Of a stretch of DNA of 63,870 nt, positions 3,795 through 28,298 are shown piece after piece. A program made the translations under genes and the position numbers. Positions within the stretch are counted from its first letter, which is position 1. Each line of letters starts with the position of its first letter. The DNA comes from an uncultured Campylobacterales bacterium. Lineage in GTDB: Bacteria; Campylobacterota; Campylobacteria; Campylobacterales; Sulfurimonadaceae. The notes under the pieces are model-generated. The model saw nothing but the letters and a program-made list of their open reading frames with translations, had not been told where the DNA came from and searched no databases. The DNA lies in contig CAITKP010000010.1 in the NCBI GenBank assembly GCA_903892995.1, positions 1-63,870 of the forward strand, written 5' to 3'.

Positions 3795-3939
3795 TTTATC
3801 TCTCCTTTATAATTTTAAAAATTATAAAATACTCATGAGACAGCATTGTGTTCGTATAATAAAATTTGTTTAACCTGTTAATCCTGCCCATAAATAAAAT
3901 TGATTAATATATACCAAATAAAAATAATGACATCTCAAA

Positions 3940-8151: not shown

Positions 8152-8159
8152 GTTTATCC

Positions 8160-11100: not shown

Positions 11101-11264
11101 TCTTCATCGACTCCCTCAAACTTCTCTTCTTTAAGATTTGCCGACAACATTTCAAAAGTTGCTGCACCAAAGAGAGAAAGTAACCATCTATTTAAGACAA
11201 GTTTGTCTTGTATTTTTAATGGTTTTTCAGCCGATACATTTTGAGTTTTTTTTGCTTTTGCCAT
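8160..11264 (-). CDS. res: Type III-like restriction endonuclease subunit (Res), helicase-nuclease
   Basis: The product is an SF2 helicase fused to a nuclease. From the chosen start (1034 residues), ATGSGKT at 158-164 is Walker A, FIDEGHRG near 255 is the DExH box, and GRGVRLKG is helicase motif VI. A PD-(D/E)xK nuclease is visible near the C-terminus: YPDF at about 931 and FIDPKG at about 949. A longer ORF begins at 11288, but the ATG at 11264 is better supported: it overlaps the mod stop as TAATG and has GGGGGAGAAG upstream. It acts with the Mod subunit, translocating and cutting unmethylated DNA. The helicase and nuclease motifs appear intact. Confidence 0.9.
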   Translation of the reverse strand: MAKAKKTQNVSAEKPLKIQDKLVLNRWLLSLFGAATFEMLSANLKEEKFEGVDEENRSKIVNLLVNNFTLGKEKLFEYDENIVRHTKSLKRNITWKYFQYLTLLFTEIYLDKYFSDKKILLNELNLFLKKFNESITDKKEKLKPFENGELNKLAFWNATGSGKTFLMHINLRQFEHYATKHKYRYNKTLLITPNTNLSIQHLSEFKQSQIEAEIFTKNSGGLDFGATKLEILEISKLGEKDEVTKVATESFGGNNLVFIDEGHRGSSGDVWKTNRDALSSDGFSFEYSATFGQAINGAGDTLKKTLTNEYAKSILFDYSYKYFYEDGHGKEYYILNLQENQAVHTDNFIYLVGAVLSFYQQLKIFENEGLKLQGYNLHKPFMVWVGGSVNAVKGKGEGASSDVVDVLLFLKRFLQNNADETQTAINNIISGNSGIGPNDIFAGKFEYLDQNVLLADVTKTIFLSQSGNLELVNIKNAQGEIGLKVGDGEYFGVINVGDDAKLLALCHTKGLNINDDQFASSQFENINDKNSNLTMLIGSKKFSEGWNSWRVSSMGLLNMGRSEGSQIIQLFGRGVRLKGQNMSLKRSTRYGKALEAKLQSIETLNIFGLNADYMTTFKTYLENEDVPTAEPIKRVIQTDRNSIFDCENKQPQLKTLMIDKSKDFKIENPSIELKDEFMGILSNRKITLDLFAKVNIITTVASNTPLNTPTAVTLPNNFLNMIDTDKLYLEVLQYKREKKYSNLLIDKAKLLDIFNSAGWYEIYAPQNYFALVSFKDVMKLYDTVLILAKRYVEEFYKFEKRTWEMNHIQCAELNCDDSNFITEYTIEIPQNYTALQSDIDELVNNISQELKNYLPNFEVFNAEPHLYCPLIFQSKAWSDVKVSPVALNEGESKFVKDLSEFIASNQEDVTFYLLRNQSKTGVGFFSESAFYPDFMLWILKGGKQYLSFIDPKGLRNMNPLYDPKIKLAKSIKEIQNKLGDCNLVLNSFIVSNTTFDDLNKNQIKKPSKTIYSDENVIFQEDRDYIEQIMEKIFY

Positions 11265-14167: not shown

Positions 14168-14755
14168 TTAAAAAACTTCACTAAGCTGCTGAAAATAGGA
14201 CTCTTTTTTGCAATACACCCAGATCTCTTTGTCTGTTTGCTTTTTTGCCATGGTTATGCGATAAAGTGAATCAGCTGTAGTAATATCTAGCTCTTTTTTG
14301 ATGTAGCCATGATCTAAAAAATGCTTATCAAATCTTGCATATCGTGGAAGTTTTGTTTTTATGTCACTGAGTGCTCCACGGACGATGATCGCTGGTGAAG
14401 TTTTACTAAGATACCTGCGAATAAACTTTTCTAAAAATCTTAAAATCAATTCTCTAGCTTCTGGCGAATCAAGGTATTTTTTAGTAGAACTGCCATCTTG
14501 TTCATTTAAATCGGGAATGTGTAGAAAGTATTGTTCTCTATTAGACCATTTTTCTATATCTACAATATATCCAAAATTTAAAATAGCAATATTGTCCTCT
14601 TTTGTAAACCCTAGTAGTGTAAATGATGGAGACAGCTCTACTTTGTAGTTTTTGTATCTAAAAACATAAGTCAATTTACTATCAATTTTTGATTCACACC
14701 AACTATTTGTATTTCGAATTGAAACCAAATAAAAATCTTCTGCTAGTTGTAACAT
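14168..14755 (-). CDS. Unknown protein, paralogue of 23739-24329
   Basis: A 195-residue protein of unknown family, starting MLQLAEDFYLVSI. It is clearly homologous over its full length to the product of 23739-24329: shared blocks include WSNREQ, KKYLDSPEARELILRF, KTSPAIIVRG, LPRYARFD, IKKELDI and WVYCKKES. No signal peptide or membrane segment is visible. A GAGGAG ribosome site precedes the ATG, and an RGACA-N6-TGTCY box lies 45 bp upstream with a -10-like TATACT. It is monocistronic and divergent from 14936. Function is unknown; conservation of the PAIIVRG core suggests that a folded domain is under selection. Confidence 0.7.
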   Translation of the reverse strand: MLQLAEDFYLVSIRNTNSWCESKIDSKLTYVFRYKNYKVELSPSFTLLGFTKEDNIAILNFGYIVDIEKWSNREQYFLHIPDLNEQDGSSTKKYLDSPEARELILRFLEKFIRRYLSKTSPAIIVRGALSDIKTKLPRYARFDKHFLDHGYIKKELDITTADSLYRITMAKKQTDKEIWVYCKKESYFQQLSEVF

Positions 14756-14783: not shown

Positions 14784-14816
14784 AGTATATGAATTTTGTT
14801 GGACAACTTGATGTCT
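14784..14816 (-). promoter_or_regulatory. Box 1: conserved promoter box and -10 for 14168-14755
   Basis: On the plus strand the box is GGACA-acttga-TGTCT at 14801-14816; read with the gene it is AGACA-N6-TGTCC. After 11 bp follows TATACT (14784-14789). The box ends 45 bp before the start codon. Confidence 0.75.
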
Positions 14817-14878
14817 TTATTCTTTGTTTACTGTAGCTTTTTTTTAAATCAGATATTTTTACAATAGTCTATTTGAAA

Positions 14879-14911
14879 GGACAAAAAAATGTCTATATTT
14901 TTAGAAATAAT
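14879..14911 (+). promoter_or_regulatory. Box 2: conserved promoter box and -10 for 14936-15700
   Basis: GGACA-aaaaaa-TGTCT at 14879-14894 is followed after 11 bp by AATAAT (14906-14911), the weakest -10 of the set. The box ends 41 bp before the start codon. Boxes 1 and 2 face away from each other in one divergent intergenic region. Confidence 0.7.
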
Positions 14912-14935
14912 ATTTTAAAAAAGGAGACACATAAG

Positions 14936-15361
14936 ATGCACTTAAATGGTATAGCAAAAGAATCTCTTAGTAATTTTTTAGAAAAATTACAGTTTGGGAG
15001 AATAACAAAAGAGAATTTCAGTGAGCATTTGAGAGAATCGTTCTTTATTGAAGGTTCTAATCTCCATCCAAATCCAAACCTTTATAAATATACATGGTGG
15101 ATCTATCACCAAAATTTACCACAACAAAGCGCTGCAGAAGTTTTTTATAAACCAGAGCATGCCTTAAACACATTTGACGCATTTGCACTTATGGAAGATC
15201 TATCTCAACAAAACATATCTTTTGCCTATGTAAATATGAAGCAAAAAAGATTAGGTGTTTTAATATGGGACTATGCAAAAATATTAGCAGAGTACCCAGA
15301 TGAGCAATTTGCACCATCATTTGAAGATGATAGAGATCCACTCATTAATGGACACAAATAA
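14936..15361 (+). CDS. Hypothetical protein, 141 aa
   Basis: An unrecognised soluble protein beginning MHLNGIAKESLSNF. An in-frame ORF begins at 14873, but that would place the conserved promoter box inside the gene; the ATG at 14936 has AAAAAGGAGACACATAAG upstream and is the better start. The next gene starts about 20 bp downstream on the same strand, so the two form an operon controlled by box 2. No catalytic motif is visible. Confidence 0.65.
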   Translation: MHLNGIAKESLSNFLEKLQFGRITKENFSEHLRESFFIEGSNLHPNPNLYKYTWWIYHQNLPQQSAAEVFYKPEHALNTFDAFALMEDLSQQNISFAYVNMKQKRLGVLIWDYAKILAEYPDEQFAPSFEDDRDPLINGHK

Positions 15362-15382
15362 CTTTACTTGAGGAAAAATTTT

Positions 15383-15700
15383 TTGATTACAAATCTCATA
15401 ATAGTATCTGACACTACTAGCCAAAATGCTATTGCCATAATTTATGAAGCGAACACAAATCTCCCACCACGTATTGTTGCAAGAGGAATAAATTCTGATG
15501 CTATTGATATGATCAATTTAGCAAAAGATCATGATATAGAAATATTTTATAATAATGATATTACAGTAATATGTAATGATGAAATCATGTATATACCTTC
15601 AAATCTGTATGAGCCTGTAGCAGATATGATGGCGTACGCTAGCAGCAAAAATAGGAATAAATCAGATGAAGATTTGAAAATATTTATCACAAAAATCTAA
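15383..15700 (+). CDS. Stand-alone FlhB C-terminal-like (FhlB-like) protein
   Basis: About 105 residues resembling the cytoplasmic C-terminal domain of the flagellar export protein FlhB, as in the small FhlB proteins: AIAIIYEA, then PPRIVARGINSDAIDMINLA, then IPSNLYEPVADMMAYA (the last matches the family's IPxELYxAVAEVLA region). The NPTH autocleavage motif of true FlhB is not seen. The start is probably TTG at 15383, which has AGGAAAA at proper spacing; TTG at 15368 is possible. No flagellar genes lie nearby, so a role in flagellar export is uncertain; in this context the domain may be reused for something else. Confidence 0.55.
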   Translation: MITNLIIVSDTTSQNAIAIIYEANTNLPPRIVARGINSDAIDMINLAKDHDIEIFYNNDITVICNDEIMYIPSNLYEPVADMMAYASSKNRNKSDEDLKIFITKI

Positions 15701-15703
15701 GCT

Positions 15704-15739
15704 CAACAACTCTAAACGCCCAGACATTTAGAGTTGTTG
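15704..15739. terminator. Strong hairpin between convergent genes
   Basis: CAACAACTCTAAA (15704-15716) pairs perfectly with TTTAGAGTTGTTG (15727-15739) around a 10-nt loop. It lies between the convergent ends at 15700 and 15754 and is probably a shared terminator, although no long U tract follows on either strand. Confidence 0.6.
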
Positions 15740-15753
15740 TCGAAGCTTCAGCT

Positions 15754-16266
15754 CTATTTTTCTACATGAAAATATGAAAGCAAACCACCCGAGTCACCAT
15801 GCCCAGCCAATGCTGGAACTGCGTTTTGAACTGTCAAATTAATAAAAGAGCGACCACTGTTTTTCACCTTAGCCACTACCAATTTTTCTCCCAGATCACA
15901 TACACAATAAAGGGCATTTGTACTCTCTAGCCATATATCATCATTTTGATCCAAACTAAATTCAAAAGATGAAGATTTACCATGAATGAGCGGTTGATTA
16001 TTATAGTTTATGTAAACTCTCTTACGGCAATTATGGCGATTAATAAAACGCATCCATCCTTGAGGTTTAGTGTGCGATCGATCTAACTCAAGTGAAAACC
16101 ATGAAATCTTTTTTAAAATGATGTCACACTGAGGAAATATTTGTGGCGATTTCTCTAGTTTTACATATTTTCCAAGTGCTACGTTTTTATGAAACTCTTC
16201 TATATAGCTTCTTGCTTCTACATTTTTTTGCTCTGCATTCTCACGAATAACCTTAATAGTTCTCAT
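15754..16266 (-). CDS. Hypothetical protein, 170 aa
   Basis: I do not recognise this protein. It starts MRTIKVIRENAEQ, has a basic central part (RFINRHNCRKRVYINYNN) and ends in VPALAGHGDSGGLLSYFHVEK-like sequence. The GHGDSGG string resembles the Ser-active-site motif of chymotrypsin-like proteases (GDSGG), but no matching His/Asp context is evident and the protein is short, so I do not call it a protease. The ribosome site is AAAGGAGAG, and box 3 lies 53 bp upstream. It is monocistronic. Confidence 0.6.
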   Translation of the reverse strand: MRTIKVIRENAEQKNVEARSYIEEFHKNVALGKYVKLEKSPQIFPQCDIILKKISWFSLELDRSHTKPQGWMRFINRHNCRKRVYINYNNQPLIHGKSSSFEFSLDQNDDIWLESTNALYCVCDLGEKLVVAKVKNSGRSFINLTVQNAVPALAGHGDSGGLLSYFHVEK

Positions 16267-16302
16267 TTGGACTCTCCTTTAAACGCCATTTATTAGTAAG
16301 TA

Positions 16303-16335
16303 ATTCTATTGTTTTTCATGGACAAGAAAATGTCT
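16303..16335 (-). promoter_or_regulatory. Box 3: conserved promoter box and -10 for 15754-16266
   Basis: On the plus strand the box is GGACA-agaaaa-TGTCT at 16320-16335. Reading with the gene, TAGAAT (16303-16308) follows after 11 bp. Confidence 0.7.
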
Positions 16336-16351
16336 TTATTTTTAAAATTTT

Positions 16352-16831
16352 CTAAATAAAAATCTTTTCTCTAACGAGATACTTAGCATAAGAAGTAGAA
16401 AAATACTCTTCATCTCGAATAATTCCGACACGTTGGATATCAAGTTTGTCAGCATCCATACATATCTGCACAGCCAGATCTTGAAAATATTTTGAGGAGC
16501 TATTTTTAACCTTTGTATGGTTCACGCATGCATAGATAAGTCTGTTTTGATCGGCTTTGCAAAGATCTATGAGATTTTCTCTAATTAAGTTCTTAATAAA
16601 AAGCCCTGCTCTTTTCCCATGATTACAATCTTCTGCTTCATCTAAGCGTCTTGAATCATGTAAAAGTGCAAAATATTCAAAGAGCTTTGAGTCAATTTTA
16701 TAATGCTTAGCTAATAATATGGCATATTCATACACTCTCTGCCAGTGATTGATGCCATGAAAGCTATCCATATCAAGAACAAACTCCCTTTCTACTCTTT
16801 CATAGAGTTTGGTGTTTCTTATTTTTAACAA
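16352..16831 (-). CDS. HD-domain phosphohydrolase-like protein
   Basis: A 159-residue protein with the pattern of small HD hydrolases: FHGINHW with His25 and His29, LLHDSRR with His58-Asp59, then NHGKRAG and a late MDADKLD. These are the metal-binding His and Asp residues of the HD superfamily, which act on nucleotides or phosphoesters. It overlaps the upstream gene by 7 bp and is thus translationally coupled to it. It may be read through from box 4 via the subtilase gene, but this is not shown. Substrate unknown. Confidence 0.75.
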   Translation of the reverse strand: MLKIRNTKLYERVEREFVLDMDSFHGINHWQRVYEYAILLAKHYKIDSKLFEYFALLHDSRRLDEAEDCNHGKRAGLFIKNLIRENLIDLCKADQNRLIYACVNHTKVKNSSSKYFQDLAVQICMDADKLDIQRVGIIRDEEYFSTSYAKYLVREKIFI

Positions 16832-17553
16832 TCTACCTCTTTCATAAATCTCACTTTAAAATCTTGAACACTCAAAGTTCCACCGTTTATCATATCCTCT
16901 ATCAAAGGCTCATCACTATCATCTAAATCCGTACTTATTTCAATTCCATCGATATAGTATCCAGCGATATATTGAGGTAAAAAAGGATGAGAGATGCGCT
17001 TGTTTTTGTCTTCCATGGTTCTAATTATTCGATCTATGTTTAAAACAGCGTTATTTGAAAAATTATATTTTTGGAACTGTTCTAAACAGGTTTGTGAAAA
17101 AAGATTTAAAAGTTTATAGTGAAAAATATATGTAGGATTTTCAATCCTATAAATAAGCTCTTTTAACTTTGAAGAAGTGTTAATCTCTTTATCAAGATAG
17201 ATCATAAATCTGTGGATAATTTTAGAGTAATAATCCTCTATCTGAGCAATAAAATCATCTGCACAAAAATCTTTTTCATTCCATATAGAGTTTCGCAATG
17301 GTACATATTCCTGCTCTTCATTAGACCAAGAAAAAATATCAATATTGTAGTAAAGATCAATATCTCTTTTTTCGATACCAAATTTGAGATATACTCCTGT
17401 CATGGTTGTCCGACCCTCTGAAGTTGGCATGTGAGTGTCAGCGTTAATTAAATATGATTTGACAAAATCGTCTTGAGTGTTTTTTGAAAAGAAACCACTC
17501 TGTTTTGCTTCAAATCTATTTTTTTGATCACTTATGATTGTAATTAAACTCAT
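16825..17553 (-). CDS. Hypothetical protein coupled to the HD hydrolase
   Basis: Unrecognised soluble protein of 242 residues. The ORF extends to 17574, but the ATG at 17553 (MSLITIISD) has AAAGGAAATAAAACA upstream and is preferred. Visible features are acidic stretches near the C-terminus (DLDDSDEPLIED) and no signal peptide. It overlaps the HD gene by 7 bp. No conserved box lies directly upstream; 70 bp separate it from the subtilase gene, so it may share that transcript or use its own promoter. Confidence 0.6.
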   Translation of the reverse strand: MSLITIISDQKNRFEAKQSGFFSKNTQDDFVKSYLINADTHMPTSEGRTTMTGVYLKFGIEKRDIDLYYNIDIFSWSNEEQEYVPLRNSIWNEKDFCADDFIAQIEDYYSKIIHRFMIYLDKEINTSSKLKELIYRIENPTYIFHYKLLNLFSQTCLEQFQKYNFSNNAVLNIDRIIRTMEDKNKRISHPFLPQYIAGYYIDGIEISTDLDDSDEPLIEDMINGGTLSVQDFKVRFMKEVDC

Positions 17554-17623
17554 TGTTTTATTTCCTTTGTTCAAAAAGCTACTATGTAAAACTCTTTACT
17601 TTAGTCAGGGGAGATTGTCAATC

Positions 17624-20038
17624 TCACCAAAACCACTGTCCATTAATTTTCACATCATTAGATGTCAGACCAGCAATCCCATAAAGGTCATAAGACTTTG
17701 TAGCTTGAAGAGTAAGAAATCTATTTCTATATTCTAAACCAACATCTTTTTGAAATGCTCCGTTAGATAAATTAGAACTGCTTGCACCATATTGAATATT
17801 GCCATCAATATCACTAGAAACAGCACTTGTTACTGTTGCTCTACCACTAATAACTTTGTTCGGTACACTTCCAATTAAGCCAAATCCATTATAAAGAACT
17901 TCTGCTTTTGCAGACACAGCTTGGATGTCGCTCATGTTAAGAATACTATCACTGTAATTAACAGCTTGTCCATAAGAATATGTTCCCGAAATATCAAGTC
18001 CAGTGAATGAAGAATCAGTTCCTTTATAACTCATACCAAAATAGTGAGTATGCCCTGAATAACCTAATGCACCTGTTCCGCTTGAACCCATTAGTCCATC
18101 TTTGTAGCTGTATTTGAATGTATAATCCTCATCCCTATAACCTACAGCAAATGTTTGTTGTTCGTTACTAACACCAACAGAAAAATGTTTGCTGATAGGA
18201 ACCATTAAAAAACTATCAAATGTAAAATCATTAGATGTTGGTTTTATGTTTTGAGTTAAATTTAAAGTAAAATCCCTACTGAACGAATCAAACCCAACTA
18301 CACTTTCTAAAGAACCCAAGGAAGCTAATTTTAGGACAACTAAAGTGCTTCCATTAACACTAGTTGTCCAAGCACTAGGAGCAACTTTAGTGTTAAGTCC
18401 TGCAACATTTTTAACTAAATTAGGCACCAACAAATCACCTGCAGGTGAAAATGCTTTAGCCAAGTCAAGCTTTCCATGTCCATAAATTGGGTCAATACCA
18501 GGTGCACCCATATCATCAGCTGTTTGAAGTAAAATTTGTGTCTGCTGATTTCCAGAAAGACGAGGCCACTTTTGTTGTAACAATGCCATTGCACCTGCAA
18601 CATAAGGTGCTGCATATGATGTACCTGAACCAGTTACAGTTGTATTTCCATTGTTGCTTGCAACACCAACACTAGAGCCTGGTGCTAATATATAAAAATC
18701 AGCAGTCAAACCAGCTCTATTGCTCCAAGAAGCTATATCAGTTCCCGTATTATTGAGTGCTCCAACAACTAACCATCCACCAGCTGACGTAAGCATATCA
18801 GAATAACCTGCTTGCAGTGGAATAGCTCCAAATTGGTTACATGTAGCTAAGGTAGTACAAGTGTTTCCTTGATTCCCTGCAGCTGTTATAAATGTTGCGC
18901 CAGCTTTAACCAACTCTCTATAACCATCTTTATACGCTGTAGTTAGATTAGCATAAGTCTCTATAGACTGATTCATAATCGTAGCACCTTTAAGAAATGC
19001 TGCTCTTGCCCCATCTATCATATCTGTAGTATAAATAAGGTTTTTAGAATCAACAACTTTAACATCTATGATATTTGCATCAAAAGCAACCCCAACAACT
19101 CCAGTACCATTAAAAGCTCCGGCAATAATAGCTGAAGTAGCAGTACCATGTCCATAATAATCATATCCTGCTACTTGCACACTTCCACTAGTAATTACAG
19201 CACCTGTAGAAGGGTTAGTAACCGTAACAGTTACATTACCGCTATAACCATTTCCAGGGTTTGTTAATTTCACTCCTGTTAAAACTCCATTAGTAATTAT
19301 AGGAACAGCAGTCGCACCGCTACCATTTCCAGAAATTGTTACAGTAGGAATTGTAGAACCAACAGTTTGGCCATAAGAACTAATTACCACCTCAGAGAGC
19401 ATTCCACCACTAAGTTGTGTTCTAGTAATAGTTTTTGTTATTGGATTGTAAATATTTGCAAAATCAATAATGTTATTTGGGTTATTATAGACTCTATTAA
19501 CATCTGAATTTAAGTTGGATACACCCGTGTCAAGGTCAGCTACAGTAACACCTTTACCGGTATAGCCTTGAGCCCATGCTACATCAACACCAGTTAAACT
19601 ATGGTCATATGATTTTATATACTCTACACTTGTTGCAAGCGGTACAACCGGCTTATCCGTAATGATATTGGCATCCGCTGGCCCTAGTACCACTGGGGTC
19701 GCTACCACAGGAGTTTGTAAAGCATCTAATTGTTTTTGGTATTTTTCAAGCAAAGCTTGATATTGAAGAAGTTTTGCTTGATTCGTAATCAAAGATTTAT
19801 ACAGTAAATCAGTAACACTACCAAATAGAACACACAAGGGAGTTTGTACAGTACAACTATTAACTTTAACAGAATAGCTATCATATAATTTTTGAGTATT
19901 TAGTATAAGCGATTGTTGATTTGCAATAATTGCCTGTTCATTTGTAACTAATTTTTGTGCTTTTGCAATTGCAGCACTGTTATCTATAGCAAGTGCTAAG
20001 GAATTAACTAGCAATAGTGGTAACAAAATTTTTTTCAT
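17624..20038 (-). CDS. Secreted S8 (subtilisin-like) serine protease with beta-rich C-terminus
   Basis: An 804-residue protein with a signal peptide (MKKILLPLLLVNSLALA) and an S8 triad: Asp170 in DLDTG, His297 in YGHGT, Ser474 in GTSYAAP; AAGNQG near 389 gives the oxyanion Asn. About 85 residues rich in Gly, Thr and Val are inserted between Asp and His and match the repeating GxGSGATAxP/PGxGYSG pattern seen in adhesins. The C-terminal 270 residues are beta-rich with alternating patterns and end in WFW, as in outer-membrane barrels, so it may be an autotransporter. ATG 20038 has AAGGGATTG upstream and lies 2 bp after the previous stop. It is third in the operon from box 4. Confidence 0.85.
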   Translation of the reverse strand: MKKILLPLLLVNSLALAIDNSAAIAKAQKLVTNEQAIIANQQSLILNTQKLYDSYSVKVNSCTVQTPLCVLFGSVTDLLYKSLITNQAKLLQYQALLEKYQKQLDALQTPVVATPVVLGPADANIITDKPVVPLATSVEYIKSYDHSLTGVDVAWAQGYTGKGVTVADLDTGVSNLNSDVNRVYNNPNNIIDFANIYNPITKTITRTQLSGGMLSEVVISSYGQTVGSTIPTVTISGNGSGATAVPIITNGVLTGVKLTNPGNGYSGNVTVTVTNPSTGAVITSGSVQVAGYDYYGHGTATSAIIAGAFNGTGVVGVAFDANIIDVKVVDSKNLIYTTDMIDGARAAFLKGATIMNQSIETYANLTTAYKDGYRELVKAGATFITAAGNQGNTCTTLATCNQFGAIPLQAGYSDMLTSAGGWLVVGALNNTGTDIASWSNRAGLTADFYILAPGSSVGVASNNGNTTVTGSGTSYAAPYVAGAMALLQQKWPRLSGNQQTQILLQTADDMGAPGIDPIYGHGKLDLAKAFSPAGDLLVPNLVKNVAGLNTKVAPSAWTTSVNGSTLVVLKLASLGSLESVVGFDSFSRDFTLNLTQNIKPTSNDFTFDSFLMVPISKHFSVGVSNEQQTFAVGYRDEDYTFKYSYKDGLMGSSGTGALGYSGHTHYFGMSYKGTDSSFTGLDISGTYSYGQAVNYSDSILNMSDIQAVSAKAEVLYNGFGLIGSVPNKVISGRATVTSAVSSDIDGNIQYGASSSNLSNGAFQKDVGLEYRNRFLTLQATKSYDLYGIAGLTSNDVKINGQWFW

Positions 20039-20040
20039 AA

Positions 20041-20643
20041 TCAATCCCTTACATTTTCATCATTATCGTTTGTACTATCTATTTCTTGAAATGTAGTTGG
20101 ATCAACAATATAAGGATCTTTAAACTCCTCATAATAAAACTCATACCTCAAAATAGCATCAGTCTCGCGTAATTTATCTTTATGTTTAAAATAATGTCGG
20201 CGGCATATCTCTTCAACTTTTGCTGTCTTTTGATCAAATGATAAAGGATACAGGTGACTCAGTTTAGTTATTCGTCCAAAATAGGAGTAATACCACATTG
20301 CTGCTTGATATGATCCAAGATAGGTACCCTTTGTGATGATATGAATGTACATATAATTTGCGGCCTTTTGCTCCGCTTTGATATATTCAACTGCATTTTC
20401 ATTTGCGTCTAAAAGTTGTTGTGGAGCTTGAAAATAGACACATAGTGCTTTAAGTAATGTAGCATCAGTGTATGTCCAATCATAGAAATTTTTTTCTTCA
20501 TTTACGATAGCACAATATGGTTCACTTAAGAGATACTCAATATGGCTAACACCTTTATTTAAATCTTTATATCCAAGAGCTCGTGCAGTATCTTCAATAC
20601 CCAATTCCATGACTTTTTCATTTAAAAAATCTTGCAAATTCAT
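20041..20643 (-). CDS. Unknown protein with a GYKxxNKG N-terminal domain
   Basis: A 200-residue protein. Residues about 10-40 (MELGIEDTARALGYKDLNKG) resemble a helix-turn-helix and match the N-terminus of the product at 21242-21802 (LMGYKNPNKG), including the following hydrophobic ladder. The C-terminal half is unrelated to that protein and unrecognised. It overlaps 20640-21167 by 4 bp and is followed 2 bp later by the subtilase start, so it sits in the box 4 operon. A regulatory role for the shared N-terminal domain is a guess. Confidence 0.6.
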   Translation of the reverse strand: MNLQDFLNEKVMELGIEDTARALGYKDLNKGVSHIEYLLSEPYCAIVNEEKNFYDWTYTDATLLKALCVYFQAPQQLLDANENAVEYIKAEQKAANYMYIHIITKGTYLGSYQAAMWYYSYFGRITKLSHLYPLSFDQKTAKVEEICRRHYFKHKDKLRETDAILRYEFYYEEFKDPYIVDPTTFQEIDSTNDNDENVRD

Positions 20644-21167
20644 ACTGTTTCCTCACTTTTAATAATTTTGGCTGCGACAACATAATCTGAATCAGTTATC
20701 CACTTTTTATCACTCTTAATATTTTCTAATAAAGTAAAAAGCGATTTATCCATTTCAAATGGTAAATCTGGGAAAGGGCAACTCATAGGTGCACCACCTG
20801 GAGATACAACTAAAGGAAGTGAATATTTGACTTGTGGAATAAAAGTTACGTTTATCTTCAAATCCATGATCTCTAGTTCATTTCTCAAAGTCAGAATTGC
20901 TGTTATGTTGTCATCTTCATTATTTTTAATATCATGTAAAGTTATCTCCGTATAACTATTGAGTTGATCGATCAGATCAAAGATATATTCATCTACTCTT
21001 TTCAATTTTAAAGAAAGTATCTTTTCATCGTGTTCACTTAGAGCAAAACGGTAACCAAATATATTACGTGGACCATATACTTGCTCCTCCCACTCATTAT
21101 ATTTTTCGGGCGAAATGACTTTTGTATTTAGGTAAAGCTTCATCAAATACTCTTGAAATGACTCCAT
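20640..21167 (-). CDS. Hypothetical protein, first gene of the box 4 operon
   Basis: A 175-residue unrecognised protein starting MESFQEYLMKLYLN. It has no signal peptide. The start has AAGGCGGT upstream, and box 4 ends 45 bp before it. The stop overlaps the next start by 4 bp. The operon then reads 20041-20643 and the S8 protease, so the protein is tied by context to the secreted protease, perhaps as an assembly or control factor; the sequence does not say which. Confidence 0.6.
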   Translation of the reverse strand: MESFQEYLMKLYLNTKVISPEKYNEWEEQVYGPRNIFGYRFALSEHDEKILSLKLKRVDEYIFDLIDQLNSYTEITLHDIKNNEDDNITAILTLRNELEIMDLKINVTFIPQVKYSLPLVVSPGGAPMSCPFPDLPFEMDKSLFTLLENIKSDKKWITDSDYVVAAKIIKSEETV

Positions 21168-21195
21168 ACTGCTACCGCCTTATATTGATAGTAAA

Positions 21196-21228
21196 ATAAT
21201 AATCGAAAATATAGACACTCATATGTCC
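21196..21228 (-). promoter_or_regulatory. Box 4: conserved promoter box and -10 for the subtilase operon
   Basis: On the minus strand the box is GGACA-tatgag-TGTCT (21213-21228), and TATTAT (21196-21201) follows after 11 bp. It has the opposite half-site order to boxes 1, 3, 5, 7 and 8 relative to its gene. Confidence 0.7.
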
Positions 21229-21241
21229 AATAATATGAAGT

Positions 21242-21802
21242 TCACGATGTAATCAATTTTCCTGCTAGATCACAATGATATCTCTTCCCTAAATAATGAA
21301 GAGTATAACTCTTTATCTCTCCCCATACTGCAAGTTTCCCACTATGTGCTTCATAGTGCTCTATTATCATTTCAGAAACTCGTTGCAGTGTCTCTAAAAG
21401 AGATTTATCGACAAGTTCATTTATATCAAACTTTATACATTTTGTACTTTGTAGTACTACTAACACCATAATCGGCTCATTATTTCTTTTAAAATTAGTA
21501 TTAGCAGATAGAGTACACTCTTTTAATTTTTGAAGATATTTATTGTAGTCAGTAGCAAGTTCTATTTCCTTATCAACTAATGATCCATCAATCTCAAGAA
21601 GTTCACACAGTTTTTTTACAAATCCCACACTTTCATATTCAAAATCATAATGTCCAGATTGCAGCCATGCCGAAAGCTTCTTACATGTAAGCAGTTTTTG
21701 TAGTGTTGCCAATCCTTTGTTTGGATTTTTGTAACCCATTAATTTGATTATTTGTTGCGGGTCTTTATTGTTAAGTTTATCTTTTATTATTTGAAGAAGC
21801 AT
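21242..21802 (-). CDS. Unknown protein with a GYKxxNKG N-terminal domain
   Basis: A 186-residue unrecognised protein. Residues about 16-37 (PQQIIKLMGYKNPNKGLATL) match the N-terminal domain of 20041-20643. The rest is not similar. The ribosome site AAAAAGGATAATAG precedes the ATG. No conserved box lies upstream, and the segment before it is the unusual structured region at 21.84-22.04 kb, so its promoter is unclear. It may be one of the regulators of this island, but this rests only on the HTH-like look of the N-terminus. Confidence 0.55.
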   Translation of the reverse strand: MLLQIIKDKLNNKDPQQIIKLMGYKNPNKGLATLQKLLTCKKLSAWLQSGHYDFEYESVGFVKKLCELLEIDGSLVDKEIELATDYNKYLQKLKECTLSANTNFKRNNEPIMVLVVLQSTKCIKFDINELVDKSLLETLQRVSEMIIEHYEAHSGKLAVWGEIKSYTLHYLGKRYHCDLAGKLITS

Positions 21803-21844
21803 CTATTATCCTTTTTTTCTGTCGATACATTTTTTACAGTTTAA

Positions 21845-21970
21845 CCGGCAAAACAAGTTTACTCGAACAACTTTCAACATTTCAATTAACAACAACGACT
21901 GTAACAGCAATCAACACTCTGGTACCCTTCGTCTTAGGTCGCTCCATGATATTTGTTTTTGTTTTACCGG
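21845..21970. repeat. Long-range inverted repeat in an intergenic segment of unusual composition
   Basis: CCGGCAAAACAA (21845-21856) pairs with TTGTTTTACCGG (21959-21970), one mismatch in 12, across about 100 bp. The whole stretch 21803-22044 lacks a credible gene and looks richer in G+C than its flanks. One plus-strand frame is open from about 21838 to 22041 but has no ribosome site or usual start. It could be a structured RNA, a recombination site or a remnant of another element; I cannot tell which. Confidence 0.45.
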
Positions 21971-22044
21971 GACATTTGCCATTTTGCAAGGTTGCATTAG
22001 GGCTTTTTACAGGAGTAAGGGCGAATATCTGCTACCCGTAATTT

Positions 22045-22704
22045 TCAAAGTCCTAGCAGCTCTTTGCTACTTGCATAAAGTTCAATTTTGAGTGTTTTTG
22101 TAGAATTAATCAGAGAGATCTCTTCCTCATACTCTAGAATAGTTGTTTTAATGGATTTTAGCTCCTGCTCTATCACACTTTTATCCCAAAATTGATACTC
22201 AAATACAAAATCTTCATTTCTCTCAAAGGCAGTATCTTTTAACTTTTTAAGACCTGATATGATCTCTTTTAAAGATGTAGGCAATCCTTTTGATTTTAAG
22301 AGATAGGACTCAAGAAGTCTAATATGCTCTTTTTTCTTTGTGATGTAGTTTAGTTTTGCGCTCAAGCCATTCTTTACATTGAACTCAAATATTGCTTCCT
22401 TGATATCACGGATATCCTCCAATACTTCCAAAGAGGAAACATGCCGATATAGCTTTTCGTTAATCTCATTTTCAATTAATTGCTCAAGCTTACCTTCATC
22501 ATTTGTAAGAATCGATGCGTAAGAGATCTCAAAACGACTTAGTTTGTTTGCATCAAAACTTCCAGATGATTTAAGGGAATAGGATGTGTCTCTTAGATTG
22601 TTCGCCTTAAAACTTTCGTATTTACGAAGGTTTTCTAAAAGCTTATGCGCTTTATTGGCAGTTACTTCAAAAGAAGTTTTTTTTGAAAGAATAAGGTTTT
22701 GCAT
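22045..22704 (-). CDS. Hypothetical protein, largely helical
   Basis: A 219-residue unrecognised protein, charged and probably coiled-coil in large part (for example residues 85-150 and 170-205). It has no signal peptide. A GGAGAGATGTT ribosome site precedes the ATG, and box 5 ends 49 bp upstream. It appears monocistronic, since the gene downstream is over 200 bp away across the structured segment. Confidence 0.6.
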   Translation of the reverse strand: MQNLILSKKTSFEVTANKAHKLLENLRKYESFKANNLRDTSYSLKSSGSFDANKLSRFEISYASILTNDEGKLEQLIENEINEKLYRHVSSLEVLEDIRDIKEAIFEFNVKNGLSAKLNYITKKKEHIRLLESYLLKSKGLPTSLKEIISGLKKLKDTAFERNEDFVFEYQFWDKSVIEQELKSIKTTILEYEEEISLINSTKTLKIELYASSKELLGL

Positions 22705-22736
22705 AACATCTCTCCATTTATTTATTTGCTGAAAGT

Positions 22737-22769
22737 ATTTTACTTATTTATATGGACAAAAATTTGTCT
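22737..22769 (-). promoter_or_regulatory. Box 5: conserved promoter box and -10 for 22045-22704
   Basis: On the plus strand the box is GGACA-aaaatt-TGTCT at 22754-22769. With the gene, TAAAAT (22737-22742) follows after 11 bp. Confidence 0.7.
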
Positions 22770-22810
22770 GTTTAAAATTTCAGTCGTCATTATTCCATCT
22801 CTAGCCAATA

Positions 22811-23323
22811 TTAAATATCTCGCATACACTCATCATTTTCTTCATCAACATATTGATAATAGACTTTAATATCACTCCAGATTATTCCTATACGTAGCAG
22901 ATCTTCTACAAAGAGATGATTATGATCATATAAACAGTGAAACCACCAGCAATGGTGATCTTTAGAGATTAAACTAGACCCTCCAAAATCGCGCCCTTTA
23001 TATTCATTATGGTTTCCATTCCATCGCCATTCTGAACTGTTATCTGTTAGAGAAATCTTTTTTACATACTCATCAATCACTGTAATAATGTTGTCTTTAT
23101 CATCTTTATACTCTTGATCACTCTCTTTAAGATAAAAATTAATGATTATCTCTATCTCATAATCATGAAGTGAATCATTTGAATCAGCAAGACGTGTTAA
23201 TAGAGCTTGATCAAGGTTAATAGCCTCTTTTATAAGCTTTTTTTGAAGATTATGAAGGCGTGCATTGAGGGCTCTGAGTTGTACTACTTGCTCCTCACTT
23301 GCTTGATATAAATATGTTTCCAT
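22811..23323 (-). CDS. Hypothetical acidic protein, 170 aa
   Basis: Unrecognised, starts METYLYQASEEQVVQL and is acidic, with a helical N-terminal half. A block HHCWWFHCLYDHNH near residues 120-135 is rich in His, Trp and Cys and could bind metal, but no known motif is matched. It has an AGAGGAATAG ribosome site and shares box 6 with the divergent gene at 23441. Confidence 0.6.
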   Translation of the reverse strand: METYLYQASEEQVVQLRALNARLHNLQKKLIKEAINLDQALLTRLADSNDSLHDYEIEIIINFYLKESDQEYKDDKDNIITVIDEYVKKISLTDNSSEWRWNGNHNEYKGRDFGGSSLISKDHHCWWFHCLYDHNHLFVEDLLRIGIIWSDIKVYYQYVDEENDECMRDI

Positions 23324-23362
23324 CTATTCCTCTATAATTTTATTGTGATATTTGATAGTAAA

Positions 23363-23412
23363 AGTATAAAAAGATATGTGGACAAATCAATGTCTTGTAT
23401 AAAACCTATAAT
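23363..23412. promoter_or_regulatory. Box 6: one box serving two divergent promoters
   Basis: GGACA-aatcaa-TGTCT at 23380-23395. To the right, TATAAT (23407-23412) follows after 11 bp for the plus gene at 23441; to the left, TATACT (23363-23368) follows after 11 bp for the minus gene ending at 23323. The symmetry shows that the box works in either orientation at the same spacing. Confidence 0.8.
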
Positions 23413-23440
23413 TTAAATAAATTTTACCTTGAGGTGTATA

Positions 23441-23710
23441 ATGCAAAACAAATCAAAACGTAGCTCGGTATATACAATTCTTTACGAGGATACCACCCAA
23501 GTTGAGCTAGATGAAATAACCAAAAATATGAGCGATAAAGAGCTATACCATTTTTTTAAAAATAAAAATATTAAATTTATACGTGTACTACCTGCAACGA
23601 CCAAAGAAAGATTAAATAGATACATTGATAAAGTTTTTAACGAAGCAATAGACAACATAATTGCAATAATGAAAAAAGGCAAATATGAGAATCTTCCTGA
23701 TAAGTTTTGA
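23441..23710 (+). CDS. Hypothetical protein, 89 aa
   Basis: An unrecognised small charged protein beginning MQNKSKRSSVYTILYED. A longer frame begins with TTG at 23429, but the ATG at 23441 has GAGGTGTATA before it. Box 6 ends 45 bp upstream. It ends in convergence with 23739-24329. No membrane segment or domain is visible. Confidence 0.6.
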   Translation: MQNKSKRSSVYTILYEDTTQVELDEITKNMSDKELYHFFKNKNIKFIRVLPATTKERLNRYIDKVFNEAIDNIIAIMKKGKYENLPDKF

Positions 23711-23738
23711 CAACATCACTTATCATTTACGAATATTT

Positions 23739-24329
23739 TTACTTAAATGCTGTATTGAGTTTATCAAATGAAGATTCTTTTTTACAATAGACCCAGAATA
23801 CCTTAGCATCTTCTTTTGGATCATATATTAAATTATAAAGAGAATCATATTCATTAATGTCTAGTTCGCGTTTGATGTAATTATGCTTTTCAAATTGGGC
23901 ATCAAATCGTTTGAATCGAGGAAGCTTCATATCAAGCTCACTTAATGGACCTCTTACAATAATAGCAGGAGATGTTTTTTGAAGATATTTATCAACGTCT
24001 CTTTCGATGAATCTTAAGACAAGCTCACGTGCTTCTTTTGAATCAAAATATTTTTTAGTATCTTGTCCGTTTTTATTATCTAAATCAAAATATTTGAACT
24101 TTTGTTCTTTATTCGACCAGCGCCTTATATCAAGATCATAGACAAAGTTCACAATACTAACTGTATCCTCTTTGATATGCCCGATTATTGTAAATTTTAT
24201 CTCTACATCTATCTTATATTCTTTATATCTAAATGTGTAATTTTTAGATTGAATAAGAAGTGAATCTTCAAATATATATTTTGACCTATCAATCGAAGTA
24301 ATATAAAAATCATTTGCTAATCGTAACAT
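23739..24329 (-). CDS. Unknown protein, paralogue of 14168-14755
   Basis: 196 residues, homologous end to end to the product of 14168-14755, with close to half of positions identical by eye. Shared blocks include FRYKEYK, RWSNKEQ, KKYFDSKEARELVLRF, KTSPAIIVRG, LPRFKRFD, YIKRELDI and WVYCKKES. The gene follows the SLOG protein gene by 18 bp, with its own AAAAGGAGATCCG ribosome site, and so falls under box 7. The pairing of this family with a SLOG protein is the best contextual clue to its function, which is unknown. Confidence 0.7.
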   Translation of the reverse strand: MLRLANDFYITSIDRSKYIFEDSLLIQSKNYTFRYKEYKIDVEIKFTIIGHIKEDTVSIVNFVYDLDIRRWSNKEQKFKYFDLDNKNGQDTKKYFDSKEARELVLRFIERDVDKYLQKTSPAIIVRGPLSELDMKLPRFKRFDAQFEKHNYIKRELDINEYDSLYNLIYDPKEDAKVFWVYCKKESSFDKLNTAFK

Positions 24330-24347
24330 CGGATCTCCTTTTAGAAA

Positions 24348-24704
24348 TTAAAACTTAATGATATAGACCTTTTTTTCAAGGCTTTTTGCGTAGTTAATTG
24401 TATATTTTGTGCCAGTTGAATGCCCATTCCAAAATGCAACTATGATGTCAGATTCTTGTACGATCTGTCTATTACGAAAATGGTACGCGCGTTTTCTATT
24501 TTTAAAATCTGGATAAAAGATAATCGTTTGGATATTATTTTTATTAGCCCACTGCTGTCCGAGGGTATCTGCACCTTTGGCACCACCGCTTACGATATGA
24601 CTGATAGGAAACTCAAGATTGAGCTCTTGCATCTTCTCATCTAAAAGATTTTTGTTTTTAAAATCTCTACTACCAATAATGGCAACTTTGTAAGTTTGAC
24701 TCAT
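24348..24704 (-). CDS. YspA/DUF2493-type SLOG-family protein
   Basis: A 118-residue Rossmann-like protein with IIGSRDF at residues 9-15, VSGGAKGADTLG at about 38-49, RNRQIVQESD near 77-86 and FWNGHSTGT near 91-99. These match the DUF2493/YspA branch of the SLOG superfamily, which binds nucleotides or nucleotide-derived ligands and often appears in nucleotide-signalling conflict systems. It is first in a two-gene unit with the 196-residue unknown protein, transcribed from box 7. It may sense a nucleotide signal; this is inference from family. Confidence 0.75.
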   Translation of the reverse strand: MSQTYKVAIIGSRDFKNKNLLDEKMQELNLEFPISHIVSGGAKGADTLGQQWANKNNIQTIIFYPDFKNRKRAYHFRNRQIVQESDIIVAFWNGHSTGTKYTINYAKSLEKKVYIIKF

Positions 24705-24731
24705 AATGCTACTCCAGTTATTTTACTGGAC

Positions 24732-24764
24732 ATTATAATGTTTCAAGTGGACAATCAAATGTCT
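24732..24764 (-). promoter_or_regulatory. Box 7: conserved promoter box and -10 for the SLOG unit
   Basis: On the plus strand the box is GGACA-atcaaa-TGTCT at 24749-24764. With the gene, a consensus TATAAT (24732-24737) follows after 11 bp. The box ends 44 bp before the start codon. Confidence 0.75.
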
Positions 24765-24790
24765 AGTATTTGATTTAATCTTGTCAATAT

Positions 24791-25153
24791 TTACTTAACT
24801 CTTTTTTTTTCTAACTTTTCTATTTTATCTTTTGTAGTAGGCAACATCAATTTTTCAAGCTCTTCAAGCCTTCCAAATGTTCGCATAACTTTTATGAAAT
24901 TAATCATAGAAATACTCCCCTTTTGCTCATAATTGGAGTATGTTGTCTGTGAGCTAAGCTCTGCTTCTTTTGCAAAATCACTCTGTTTTTTATTTTGAGA
25001 GATTCGTAGCTCTTTTGCTCTCATTGCCAAAACCATTGCAATCTCTTTATCAGTCAGCGTTCCAAACGCACTGTTTGGATTGAGGTTGTCTTTAAATTTC
25101 TTTTTTATCTTTGCTTGAGAAAGTTGCAGTTTCTTTAGAAGTTCTCCACTCAT
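24791..25153 (-). CDS. hipB: Xre-type antitoxin of a HipA-like module
   Basis: A 120-residue protein with a central helix-turn-helix (residues about 45-95, including SQNKKQSDFAKEAELS and TYSNYEQKGSIS) and a lysine-rich tail. The start overlaps the stop of the HipA-like gene by 4 bp. HipB proteins bind HipA and repress the operon. Here the regulator gene follows the kinase gene, whereas most hipBA operons have hipB first. A perfect inverted repeat sits upstream of hipA. Confidence 0.75.
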   Translation of the reverse strand: MSGELLKKLQLSQAKIKKKFKDNLNPNSAFGTLTDKEIAMVLAMRAKELRISQNKKQSDFAKEAELSSQTTYSNYEQKGSISMINFIKVMRTFGRLEELEKLMLPTTKDKIEKLEKKRVK

Positions 25154-26403
25154 GACAATGCTCCTTGCAGATCTCTTTGTTGTGTTTCAAAAAGAATCTG
25201 GTTTTGTTTTAATTCACTTACCCCATACTCATTTAAAAGTAATGGTAACTCAGTATCACGCAGTTTTTTTAGTCTTTCGAGTGTTTCAGCCACAAACTCT
25301 AGCTCAATTGAAAACTCAGTTGCTAGTGCCGTTATATCATCTATATCTATTTGTGAAAGAGGTTTGCCATAAAGGGAGAGCTGGTGTTCTACTGTTTGTT
25401 TTTCACCTTTAGCAAAGGTTAAATCATAGGCTGGTGTAGCTGTATATTTAAAATCTCTATCGCACATAAAGGAGAAGTTTCTACTGTGATCATCTTGATT
25501 GACAAACATATAGTTAAAAAGCATCTGTAAAAAGAGTTGTTTTAGACTACCTAATGCTCCTAGTTTTACCGCTGTTCTAAGGAGATCCTCGTAGCCAATT
25601 GTTCTTGGTATATTATAATCAAGATGCAAAAGTCCCGCTAATGAGTGCACATGATATCTTTTCCCACTTGGCTCAATATCAAATCTTTTTGTTACAAAGT
25701 GGTGTTTACCATCAGTCTCTGCCAAATAGCAATCCATCATATTAAGACCTGATTTTTTTGCCAACAGGTAGTAGATGTACTCGACTTTAGAGTATGTAGA
25801 TCTAGTTTCATCATCATTCGCAGTGTCATCATACTTGATTATGGCATGGATAAATCCCTCTTTTAGAGGCTTGGTTTTATCCCCTAAAAACACCTCTTTT
25901 GTTTCAAGGTTGATAGCTCCAACTGCTTTACTTCTGGCTCCGCCTACAAAAGAGTGAGCACTGATCAAAAAGGCATCCTGCAAAGAGTGATAATCACCAC
26001 CTTTTTTAAGCTCTTTTACCTTTTCAAACATCGATTTTAATTCTACAGTTTGTTCAAAATCATTTTCTTTTTCCATAGAGGGTTCATAACTAATAGCTCC
26101 CAAACCTCGATCGCCTATAAAAAGTAGTTCATCACTGACGGTTGGGTATTTATTTGAGTTTATTAAAAAAAAGTTGTTAAGAATCTCATTTCCAAAATTT
26201 CCAGGTAATGAATCGCTTATAAATCCAGCGACTCGTTCTAAGTGCACAAGATTTGTAGTGTCAATCTCTTTTTGATGTGAGTTTAAAATTAAAGGGCTTA
26301 CTTTATGACACATATCATCGACTTGTTTGAGATACACCCTATCTCCATCTTGATACATATCTGCTATGTGCTGATCAAAAATATATATTGAAATTTTTTG
26401 CAT
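25150..26403 (-). CDS. hipA: HipA-family serine/threonine kinase toxin
   Basis: A 417-residue HipA-type kinase. SFVGGARSKA at 151-160 matches the HipA loop carrying the autophosphorylated Ser, NQDDHSRNF at 302-310 is the catalytic segment, and PAYDLTF at 325-331 is the metal-binding segment. HipA toxins phosphorylate aminoacyl-tRNA synthetases or related targets and cause dormancy. Key residues are present, so it is probably active. AAGGACTTTGT precedes the ATG. It is not preceded by the RGACA box, so it is controlled separately from the surrounding island. Confidence 0.88.
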   Translation of the reverse strand: MQKISIYIFDQHIADMYQDGDRVYLKQVDDMCHKVSPLILNSHQKEIDTTNLVHLERVAGFISDSLPGNFGNEILNNFFLINSNKYPTVSDELLFIGDRGLGAISYEPSMEKENDFEQTVELKSMFEKVKELKKGGDYHSLQDAFLISAHSFVGGARSKAVGAINLETKEVFLGDKTKPLKEGFIHAIIKYDDTANDDETRSTYSKVEYIYYLLAKKSGLNMMDCYLAETDGKHHFVTKRFDIEPSGKRYHVHSLAGLLHLDYNIPRTIGYEDLLRTAVKLGALGSLKQLFLQMLFNYMFVNQDDHSRNFSFMCDRDFKYTATPAYDLTFAKGEKQTVEHQLSLYGKPLSQIDIDDITALATEFSIELEFVAETLERLKKLRDTELPLLLNEYGVSELKQNQILFETQQRDLQGALS

Positions 26404-26417
26404 ACAAAGTCCTTATA

Positions 26418-26470
26418 CATATATATTTGTAATAATAACCAATAATTCTATTTAAATACAAATATATATG
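26418..26470. promoter_or_regulatory. Perfect inverted repeat upstream of hipA
   Basis: CATATATATTTGTA (26418-26431) and TACAAATATATATG (26457-26470) are exact 14-bp inverted copies 25 bp apart, ending 14 bp before the hipA start. They are likely operators for the Xre protein; HipB-type repressors are known to bind such repeats. Confidence 0.6.
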
Positions 26471-26532
26471 ATTAATAATAAAACCAAAAAGCGTTATTTA
26501 GACTTTGCAAATTTTTTCATAAATTCTAGGTC

Positions 26533-27108
26533 CTACTTGTTCAACTTATCAATCTCTTCATCCATCACTTTTAATGAATCCTTCGCTTGCTCTTTTTGAT
26601 ACTTCGCCGCCACTGATCCATAAGTTTCATGTAAACCATCTTTTAACTCTTGGAGCGATTTAGAAGTAAGTTGCATCCTGACCCATACCTCGCCAGCAGG
26701 AGATATCCAAATATTACTACGTCTTACACCAACTAGAGTCTGGTGTGCTATTGTACGAGATGTTTCTGAGCGCACTGTATCTAGTTCTATCCCTTTTTTC
26801 TTGCCTATAATCTGTTTAAAACTCTCATTCATAGCAGATACTTTTACCTCAATCTGGCGAGCCAAAGAGACTCTTGCCGCATTTTCAGCTTCATCTATTG
26901 CAAATTGGATTCCTAAATCTGTGATCTGAGCATTTCCAGAAGCACTAAGTGATGTCGTGTTATTATCGGGGTTTAGCACCCAAATGGGAGCTTTTTCAAG
27001 CTCATTGTGATACGCCTTTGGTTCAATCGGTAAAGATACACTTTTACTGCATCCAACTAACATTGCAGCCAATCCTATTGCTATAAATAGACCTGTTGTT
27101 TTATTCAT
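26533..27108 (-). CDS. LPP20-family lipoprotein
   Basis: 191 residues with a lipoprotein signal (AMLVGC, lipidated Cys at residue 20) and the LPP20 fold: PIWVLNP, then LSASGNAQI, AIDEAENAARVSLARQIEVKV and late WISPAGEVWVRMQL. LPP20 proteins are outer-membrane or periplasmic lipoproteins of Campylobacterota with unclear functions. It follows the second lipoprotein by 24 bp with its own CAGGAGAAATAAG site, and it lies in the unit started by box 8. Confidence 0.8.
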   Translation of the reverse strand: MNKTTGLFIAIGLAAMLVGCSKSVSLPIEPKAYHNELEKAPIWVLNPDNNTTSLSASGNAQITDLGIQFAIDEAENAARVSLARQIEVKVSAMNESFKQIIGKKKGIELDTVRSETSRTIAHQTLVGVRRSNIWISPAGEVWVRMQLTSKSLQELKDGLHETYGSVAAKYQKEQAKDSLKVMDEEIDKLNK

Positions 27109-27132
27109 CTTATTTCTCCTGTATTTTTTTAT

Positions 27133-28041
27133 TTAATAATTTTGCAATGCATCTTTAAGACCACTCTTTAAAAGGGCCCTTTGCATCTTCTGTTTTACAT
27201 TACGTTGGGATGTGAGTTTTGATTTGCCCTCATCTACAGATTTCTGCTCTAGAGAGTAAAGTGTCTCTTTACATTCAGACACCAAATCCAATGAAACATT
27301 CATGACACACAAATAATGTCCGTTATTCATTTGATGAAACTCAAATGAATGTTTTTCGATCAAAGTCCCCTCCCCTTTCTCTGATATATTAATATTTATC
27401 TGAGCGAAAACAGGTGCAATTAGTGAAGAATCTCCGCTTACATGTAAAGCTTTTTTTTCAAACACGGTGTACCCTAATTCATCTATCTCCTCAACTATTT
27501 TACTTTCAGGATTGTATGTTCGTAAAAGAGCGCGTTTTGTAATGATTTGTTCTTTACGATATGTGTAATTCTCTCTTTGTGACCTATTCATACAATGTGC
27601 TTTTGGATTGTTTTGCTTAAGCCAATAGATATCATCTTTTAAACTTTCTTCAAGACTGTCAGCTACACTTTGCGTTGTTACACATGTTCTTACAAAATAT
27701 GCCTTATCAAGTATCGTAGAGCTTATTTCCTCTTTTTCAATAATCGGTCTTGAAATTATTGGAAAGAGATTTTTGATACTAAGGTTAGATTTTTTGATTC
27801 TCTCAATTTGACCATTGGTATAAGTTGTGTTACTTTCATTTACAGCATTAATGAGCAATCCTATAGCATGTGAGAGTGAAGAAAGACTCTGTTCTTTTGC
27901 AATTTCTGAAAACTCTCCAGAACCATCACCACAAACCATGTTTTCATTGCTCTTTTGAAAATACCATTCTGGGGGTGTAGGTTGTGCGCATCCGCCAAAC
28001 GCCATCAAAACAAGCATACTAGTGAGTATCCACTGGATCAA
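27133..28041 (-). CDS. LPP20-like lipoprotein, 302 aa
   Basis: A lipoprotein with the lipobox AFGGC and a mature region starting AQPTPPEWYFQKSNEN, then CGDGSGEFSEIAKEQSLSSL, which resembles the N-terminal part of LPP20 proteins. The ORF is open from 28095, but a TTG at 28041 is preceded by CCGGAGAAAAAA and gives a compact signal peptide (MIQWILTSMLVLMAFGGC), so I place the start there; this is uncertain. The gene overlaps the end of 28019-28240 by 23 bp, so the two are coupled. It shares the box 8 transcript. Confidence 0.65.
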   Translation of the reverse strand: MIQWILTSMLVLMAFGGCAQPTPPEWYFQKSNENMVCGDGSGEFSEIAKEQSLSSLSHAIGLLINAVNESNTTYTNGQIERIKKSNLSIKNLFPIISRPIIEKEEISSTILDKAYFVRTCVTTQSVADSLEESLKDDIYWLKQNNPKAHCMNRSQRENYTYRKEQIITKRALLRTYNPESKIVEEIDELGYTVFEKKALHVSGDSSLIAPVFAQININISEKGEGTLIEKHSFEFHQMNNGHYLCVMNVSLDLVSECKETLYSLEQKSVDEGKSKLTSQRNVKQKMQRALLKSGLKDALQNY

Positions 28042-28240
28042 TTTTTTCTCCGGTAAGTTGATAGAGCTTTTCTTCAGGTGTAAGTGACGTATCAATCCCT
28101 TTATCTTCTTTATGTGATTTGTTTGTGGATATTATTGTCTTTGGCTTTTTTTGAGATGAATTTTTTAAAATATTCTCTTCACCACTACAAGAGCGAATCA
28201 ATACAACAATAATTAGAAACCATATTAAAAATTGCATCTC
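28019..28240 (-). CDS. Small membrane-anchored hypothetical protein
   Basis: 73 residues: MQFLIWFLIIVVLIRSC forms a membrane or signal segment, followed by a hydrophilic Lys/Ser-rich part and a C-terminal LTPEEKLYQLTGEKID. An ORF begins at 28288, but that lies inside the conserved promoter box; the ATG at 28240 has AAGGAAAATAGAG upstream. It is first in the lipoprotein unit, with box 8 ending 42 bp upstream. A Cys follows the hydrophobic segment but the lipobox is not canonical. Confidence 0.6.
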   Translation of the reverse strand, partial: EMQFLIWFLIIVVLIRSCSGEENILKNSSQKKPKTIISTNKSHKEDKGIDTSLTPEEKLYQLTGEKIDPVDTH

Positions 28241-28265
28241 TATTTTCCTTGTGTTTTGTAAGAAA

Positions 28266-28298
28266 ATTATAGGAAAATATTTGGACACGTAGTTGTCT
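28266..28298 (-). promoter_or_regulatory. Box 8: conserved promoter box and -10 for the lipoprotein unit
   Basis: On the plus strand the box is GGACA-cgtagt-TGTCT at 28283-28298. With the gene, a consensus TATAAT (28266-28271) follows after 11 bp. This is the rightmost copy seen. Confidence 0.75.

Follow-up and report, generated by a model that had tools for sequence, protein, structure and literature searches.

The activator DriD of Caulobacter crescentus, itself activated by single-stranded DNA (ssDNA), reads the palindrome ATACGAC-N7-GTCGTAT, whose distance from the -10 is the same at every DriD promoter, and its sites flank sigma4 at a poor -35 (PMC12340889). The LexA/RecA-independent P1 promoters of mycobacteria, which are served by PafBC, carry the consensus tTGTCRgtg-8nt-TannnT (PMC5656591). 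Of the other WYL proteins, SiwR of Mycobacterium smegmatis is an activator with a 19-bp palindrome between -35 and -10 (PMC10693628), and BrxR represses a plasmid defence island from a site that lies after the -10 without fixed activator spacing (PMC9122601).

The window (that is, the whole stretch of DNA analysed, 63,870 bases, which is an entire contig of a 2.43-Mb Campylobacterales genome) contains eight exact matches to RGACAN6TGTCY, while 0.17 were expected and at most two were found in any of 100 shuffles. All eight boxes of the original prediction were recovered at their positions, with no further exact match in the whole window. When the -10 was included (GACAN6TGTC-N12-TANNNT), nine matches were found versus 0.05 expected. 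Based on flank alignment, eight of the nine are real promoters, the remaining one being the + side of the box at 24749, where the hexamer is present and no start codon is faced; the ninth real promoter belongs to the box at 14879, whose -10 (AATAAT) likewise lies at +11. The same alignment confirmed the predicted 11 bp between box and -10 at all nine promoters. The boxes stand 41-56 bp upstream of the start codons, and that at 23380 is shared by two divergent promoters and stands 11 bp from the -10 of either, both as had been proposed.

The promoters are distributed over both strands. Box 1 (14801..14816, - strand; -10 TATACT at 14784-14789) drives 14168-14755, behind which type III mod/res genes and a DUF3293 gene follow in the same direction (7714-14089), an operon judged by spacing only; the type III restriction genes may be co-transcribed from this box, provided that the 78-bp gap holds neither a terminator nor another promoter. 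Box 2 (14879..14894, + strand; -10 at 14906-14911) drives 14936-15361 and probably 15368-15700. On the - strand follow box 3 (16320..16335; TAGAAT at 16303-16308) for 15754-16266, box 4 (21213..21228; TATTAT at 21196-21201) for 20640-21167 and the next genes down to 16352, and box 5 (22754..22769; TAAAAT at 22737-22742) for 22045-22704 and perhaps 21242-21802. The bidirectional box 6 (23380..23395) faces 22811-23323 on its - side (TATACT at 23363-23368) and 23441-23710 on its + side (TATAAT at 23407-23412). Box 7 (24749..24764, - strand; TATAAT at 24732-24737) precedes the YspA/SLOG gene 24348-24704 and then 23739-24329, while box 8 (28283..28298, - strand; TATAAT at 28266-28271) precedes 28019-28237, encoding a 72-aa protein, behind which lie 27133-28095 and then 26533-27108 (an LPP20-like lipoprotein). 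A tentative tenth promoter has a degenerate box at 3838..3853 (- strand; GAACACAATGCTGTCT-N11-TATAAT) with one mismatch.

The window is probably a plasmid or mobile island: it carries a ParA-like protein, ParB, a DnaB-like helicase, a HipA protein, a GmrSD enzyme, an AbiEii toxin and the type III restriction system. No terminal overlap of the contig was found. Its own genome was searched by pattern and by family. The rarity of the motif across the genome, on which the original prediction depended, was borne out: a looser pattern matched only 16 times in 2.43 Mb, nine of these in the window and three on contig C29, as against no match for the reversed-pattern control. Matches on contigs C76 and C98 were judged to be chance, as they represent one repeated sequence without the outer R base. 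The final 40 bases of the box-bearing C29 recur at 63818-63857, near the right end of the window; therefore, both contigs run into a shared repeat.

The arrangement shares features with the described systems. With DriD it has in common a wHTH-WYL-WCX protein (here the putative regulator, DriD being the best fold match) and a GAC..GTC palindrome around the -35 position, GACA-N6-TGTC being centred there, together with a single fixed -10 distance and a poor -35. However, the spacer of DriD is N7, whereas the main form here is GAC-N8-GTC and only the minor N5 form corresponds to GAC-N7-GTC; moreover, the known DriD regulon comprises a few chromosomal genes of a genus that has LexA, whereas here plasmids and islands bear as many as 14 promoters per cluster. 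PafBC, the best profile match, shares the TGTC-12-TANNNT spacing, the lack of a -35 and the (here putative) WYL activator, yet it is a heterodimer that uses one half-site and needs RNA polymerase for binding, in contrast to a dyad site and one gene for the protein. No tandem WYL genes of the PafB/PafC type were seen at the box loci examined, which have single WYL genes; the plasmid pACIB has several, neither fused nor directly paired as in pafBC. SiwR shares a WYL activator (again putative here) and a palindrome, but regulates an adjacent operon rather than a regulon of many promoters. CapW, a WYL protein of defence islands, is a repressor. Together with BrxR it shares the link between WYL proteins and defence genes on mobile DNA as well as palindromic sites, yet BrxR represses from a site past the -10, while the box here lies before the -10 at a fixed +11.

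To avoid circularity, loci were also fetched by WYL protein only. Among all 4-mer palindromes with spacers of 0-14 (3,840 tested) upstream of 108 WYL genes, GACA-N6-TGTC ranked first (24 of 108; 0.18 in shuffles), the ranks below it being held by A/T-only palindromes. After leaving out one WYL gene found via its box, N6 spacers were found upstream of 23 and N5 spacers upstream of 10 of the 107 genes, with at most two for any other spacer and 0.18 in shuffles. Within 3 kb of WYL genes, 75 N6 and 42 N5 boxes were counted, versus 3-5 for the inverse orientation. At these protein-fetched loci, TANNNT was located at exactly +11 on 46 of 124 N6 box sides, compared with about four for other offsets; of the N5 box sides, 29 of 68 have it there. 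It is thus the promoter-proximal half-site that is anchored, as N5 and N6 boxes agree in +11.

Over 123 collected promoters, the match to TTGACA at the -35 position (2.09 of 6) was below background (2.67), and the 11-bp spacers were almost information-free while half-sites and -10 were kept. The low -35 match agrees with the proposal that the box replaces the -35 element. The lack of a -35 nevertheless says less than had been claimed, since many sigma-70 promoters of this phylum have a poor one, and a stronger argument comes from the fixed spacing. A conserved TATCA after the -10, apparent by eye in the window, was weak among the 123 (9 cases in the first bases, compared with 6 in a control stretch); the broader TATMA stands out at +5 (17).

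The box with its 11-bp spacing is a promoter class common to Campylobacterales. It is clustered, with up to 14 copies per cluster, on plasmids and chromosomal islands of the order, and the clusters adjoin genes of one HTH-WYL-WCX subfamily. The prediction of a dedicated regulator with a multi-unit regulon holds as to a single regulator with many promoters, but not as to confinement to one island. A search of 60 relatives with an HTH-WYL protein placed WYL genes beside boxes of several genomes, including a same-genus contig (G001:C57) with seven strict promoters within 15 kb and a WYL gene; furthermore, a box lies upstream of an HTH-WYL gene in the window's own genome (contig C107) and in G031. 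Among 399 genomes, the promoter was found in 41, a WYL homologue in 106 and both in 27 (P value 2.5e-8; Fisher test), with a homologue in each of the nine genomes that have at least three promoters. Half of the listed boxes (46 of 91) are within 20 kb of a WYL gene. In G110, 14 promoter matches extend over ~43 kb, at one end of which lies a WYL gene with a box immediately before it, and in G090 eight matches surround the WYL gene. No WYL gene lies within the window itself, nor within 20 kb of several other clusters (G179, G316, G138:C54 and G391), which would therefore need service in trans. On two annotated Arcobacteraceae plasmids, the non-self boxes that face annotated starts are all 42-52 bp away from them with the -10 at +11. 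Boxes in G001:C96 and G007:C57 may be chance, for they are without a ribosome site and start where expected. None of the papers searched describes such a regulon in this phylum.

Two WYL paralogues were found in the window's own genome, on contigs C106 (L092:2182-3114) and C107 (L018:2635-3594); both have HTH_11, WYL and WCX domains above cut-offs and a box upstream. The C106 protein is the likely regulator of the window, since its type groups with the WYL genes of islands that resemble the window in their other genes, and the C107 protein is the second candidate. A profile of 34 relatives searched against solved structures placed PafBC and DriD first, while the AlphaFold model of C106 gave DriD as the top fold match, followed by PafBC and then by BrxR and CapW; overall TM scores were low owing to moderate model confidence (pLDDT 79, pTM 0.53). 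The WYL protein had no match in phages. The WYL genes' own boxes do not stand at one position, and some overlap the start codon; this placement fits autorepression, so that autoregulation may be negative. Those in L163, L169, L171, L223 and L224 have no -10 at +11, and in the first three of these loci the nearest TAAAAT is ~30 bp away, a different and perhaps negative arrangement. At L018 ~5381-6516, two fragments are 63-75% identical to the C-terminal part of the adjacent WYL regulator, apparently remnants of duplicated copies.

The computed sites, fixed geometry, linkage between box and WYL gene, missing -35 match and fold, with the likeness to DriD and PafBC, fit an activator that stands in for the -35 contact: the box is in good probability the binding site of a DriD/PafBC-like WYL activator that recruits polymerase to the -35-less promoters of a plasmid or mobile island. 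We infer that the protein binds, that it activates and does not repress, which paralogue acts and what induces it. A homodimeric HTH-WYL-WCX protein would sit on the box with one wHTH per GACA/TGTC half-site, either side of the vacant -35. The proximal half-site, 12 bp before the -10, would hold it against sigma region 4, and promoters without a -35 would receive housekeeping RNA polymerase through this contact. If DriD and PafBC are a guide, the WYL domain may sense single-stranded DNA or another nucleic-acid signal, upon which the mobile-island genes would be switched on jointly.

A rather unlikely alternative is that the same protein acts as a repressor, its dimer covering -39 to -24 and blocking polymerase until a nucleic-acid signal arrives. 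BrxR sets a precedent on a plasmid defence island (PMC9122601), the C106 model also matches the CapW and BrxR structures, the varied self-box positions suit repression, and promoters of a phylum that often lacks a clear -35 might fire unaided. However, a roadblock needs no single-base spacing to the -10, yet +11 is kept for N5 and N6 alike; the activators DriD and PafBC rank above BrxR and CapW in both profile and fold; and the match to the -35 consensus is below background.

That an unrelated regulator binds the box, with the WYL genes as mere frequent passengers of islands, is very improbable. The XRE/HipB-like gene 24791-25153 would be a candidate, as it sits between boxes and the hipBA pair recurs in pACIB, but the hipBA operon is without a box of its own; moreover, enrichment ahead of WYL genes, including those with different neighbours, was limited to GACA-N6-TGTC and its N5 form, and DriD, a solved WYL relative, reads GAC-N7-GTC. 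It is scarcely credible that the promoters are copies of one mobile cassette, their spacing due to common descent and not function: the island does have paralogous genes (14168 and 23739; 52%), yet the spacers are almost information-free over the 123 promoters while half-sites and -10 are kept, and in many families of the order this spacing is found at different genes.

The proposed WYL activator would operate in an order without LexA, the usual SOS repressor. The LexA DNA-binding domain was absent from the window's own genome (G000) and from 39 of 40 relatives, with positive controls. A broader reading, possible but somewhat doubtful, is that LexA-less Campylobacterales carry a mobile, order-wide alarm for DNA damage or invasion, in which ssDNA-sensing WYL activators on plasmids and islands act through one promoter, combining the DriD dyad with the PafBC spacing, to switch on defence or checkpoint batteries (SLOG, Sir2, AAA ATPases, FtsZ- and DnaA-like proteins, and restriction systems). 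For this LexA-less order, an anonymous DNA box here becomes a testable regulon with a named regulator family. With the promoter signature, regulon members can be listed across hundreds of genomes; it also brings up many uncharacterised gene families, which probably cooperate, given that they are co-regulated. The finding further suggests a single WYL promoter design, of which the promoter geometries of DriD and PafBC would be two forms.

Several box-driven genes resemble defence or checkpoint factors. Across the order, the box drives YspA/SLOG and Sir2 proteins, IetA-like AAA ATPases, a DnaA-type ATPase, an FtsZ paralogue, a DUF2779 protein, an M28 peptidase and many unassigned proteins; an ADP-ribosylglycohydrolase is located in the G110 island. 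The FtsZ paralogue (L018:10146-11081; tubulin GTPase and FtsZ_C domains), a possible division-checkpoint protein, has a box with -10 TAAACT at +11. The box-driven L160:12372-13118, in the 14-promoter island of G110, consists mostly of a DnaA ATPase domain. An 11-kb segment of the Aliarcobacter plasmid pACIB (L223:13130-24169) holds three WYL-type/transcriptional regulator genes together with a hipBA pair and a SLOG gene that is box-driven.

For most genes of the window's island, no confident match was found in Pfam, NCBIfam or PHROGs, and eight of the island's genes have homologues in other box-carrying islands of the order. The box-driven 14168..14755 (- strand) is a paralogue of 23739-24329, and in another family of the order the box also drives its homologue, L162:8296-9162. 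Homologues of 14936..15361 (+ strand) in the G090, G138 and G327 islands are also box-driven (47-48%), those of 22811..23323 (- strand) were found in L169, L171, L018 and further islands, and the YspA-type SLOG protein (24348..24704, - strand) is box-driven in the window, L164, L171 and the A. cibarius plasmid pACIB. Two further genes lie behind box-driven ones on this plasmid-like contig: 15368-15700 encodes a 110-aa protein that matches the C-terminal part of FlhB/YscU export proteins (PF01312), and 17624-20044, mid-operon behind the box at 21213, encodes an 806-aa subtilase (PF00082) with an apparent signal sequence.
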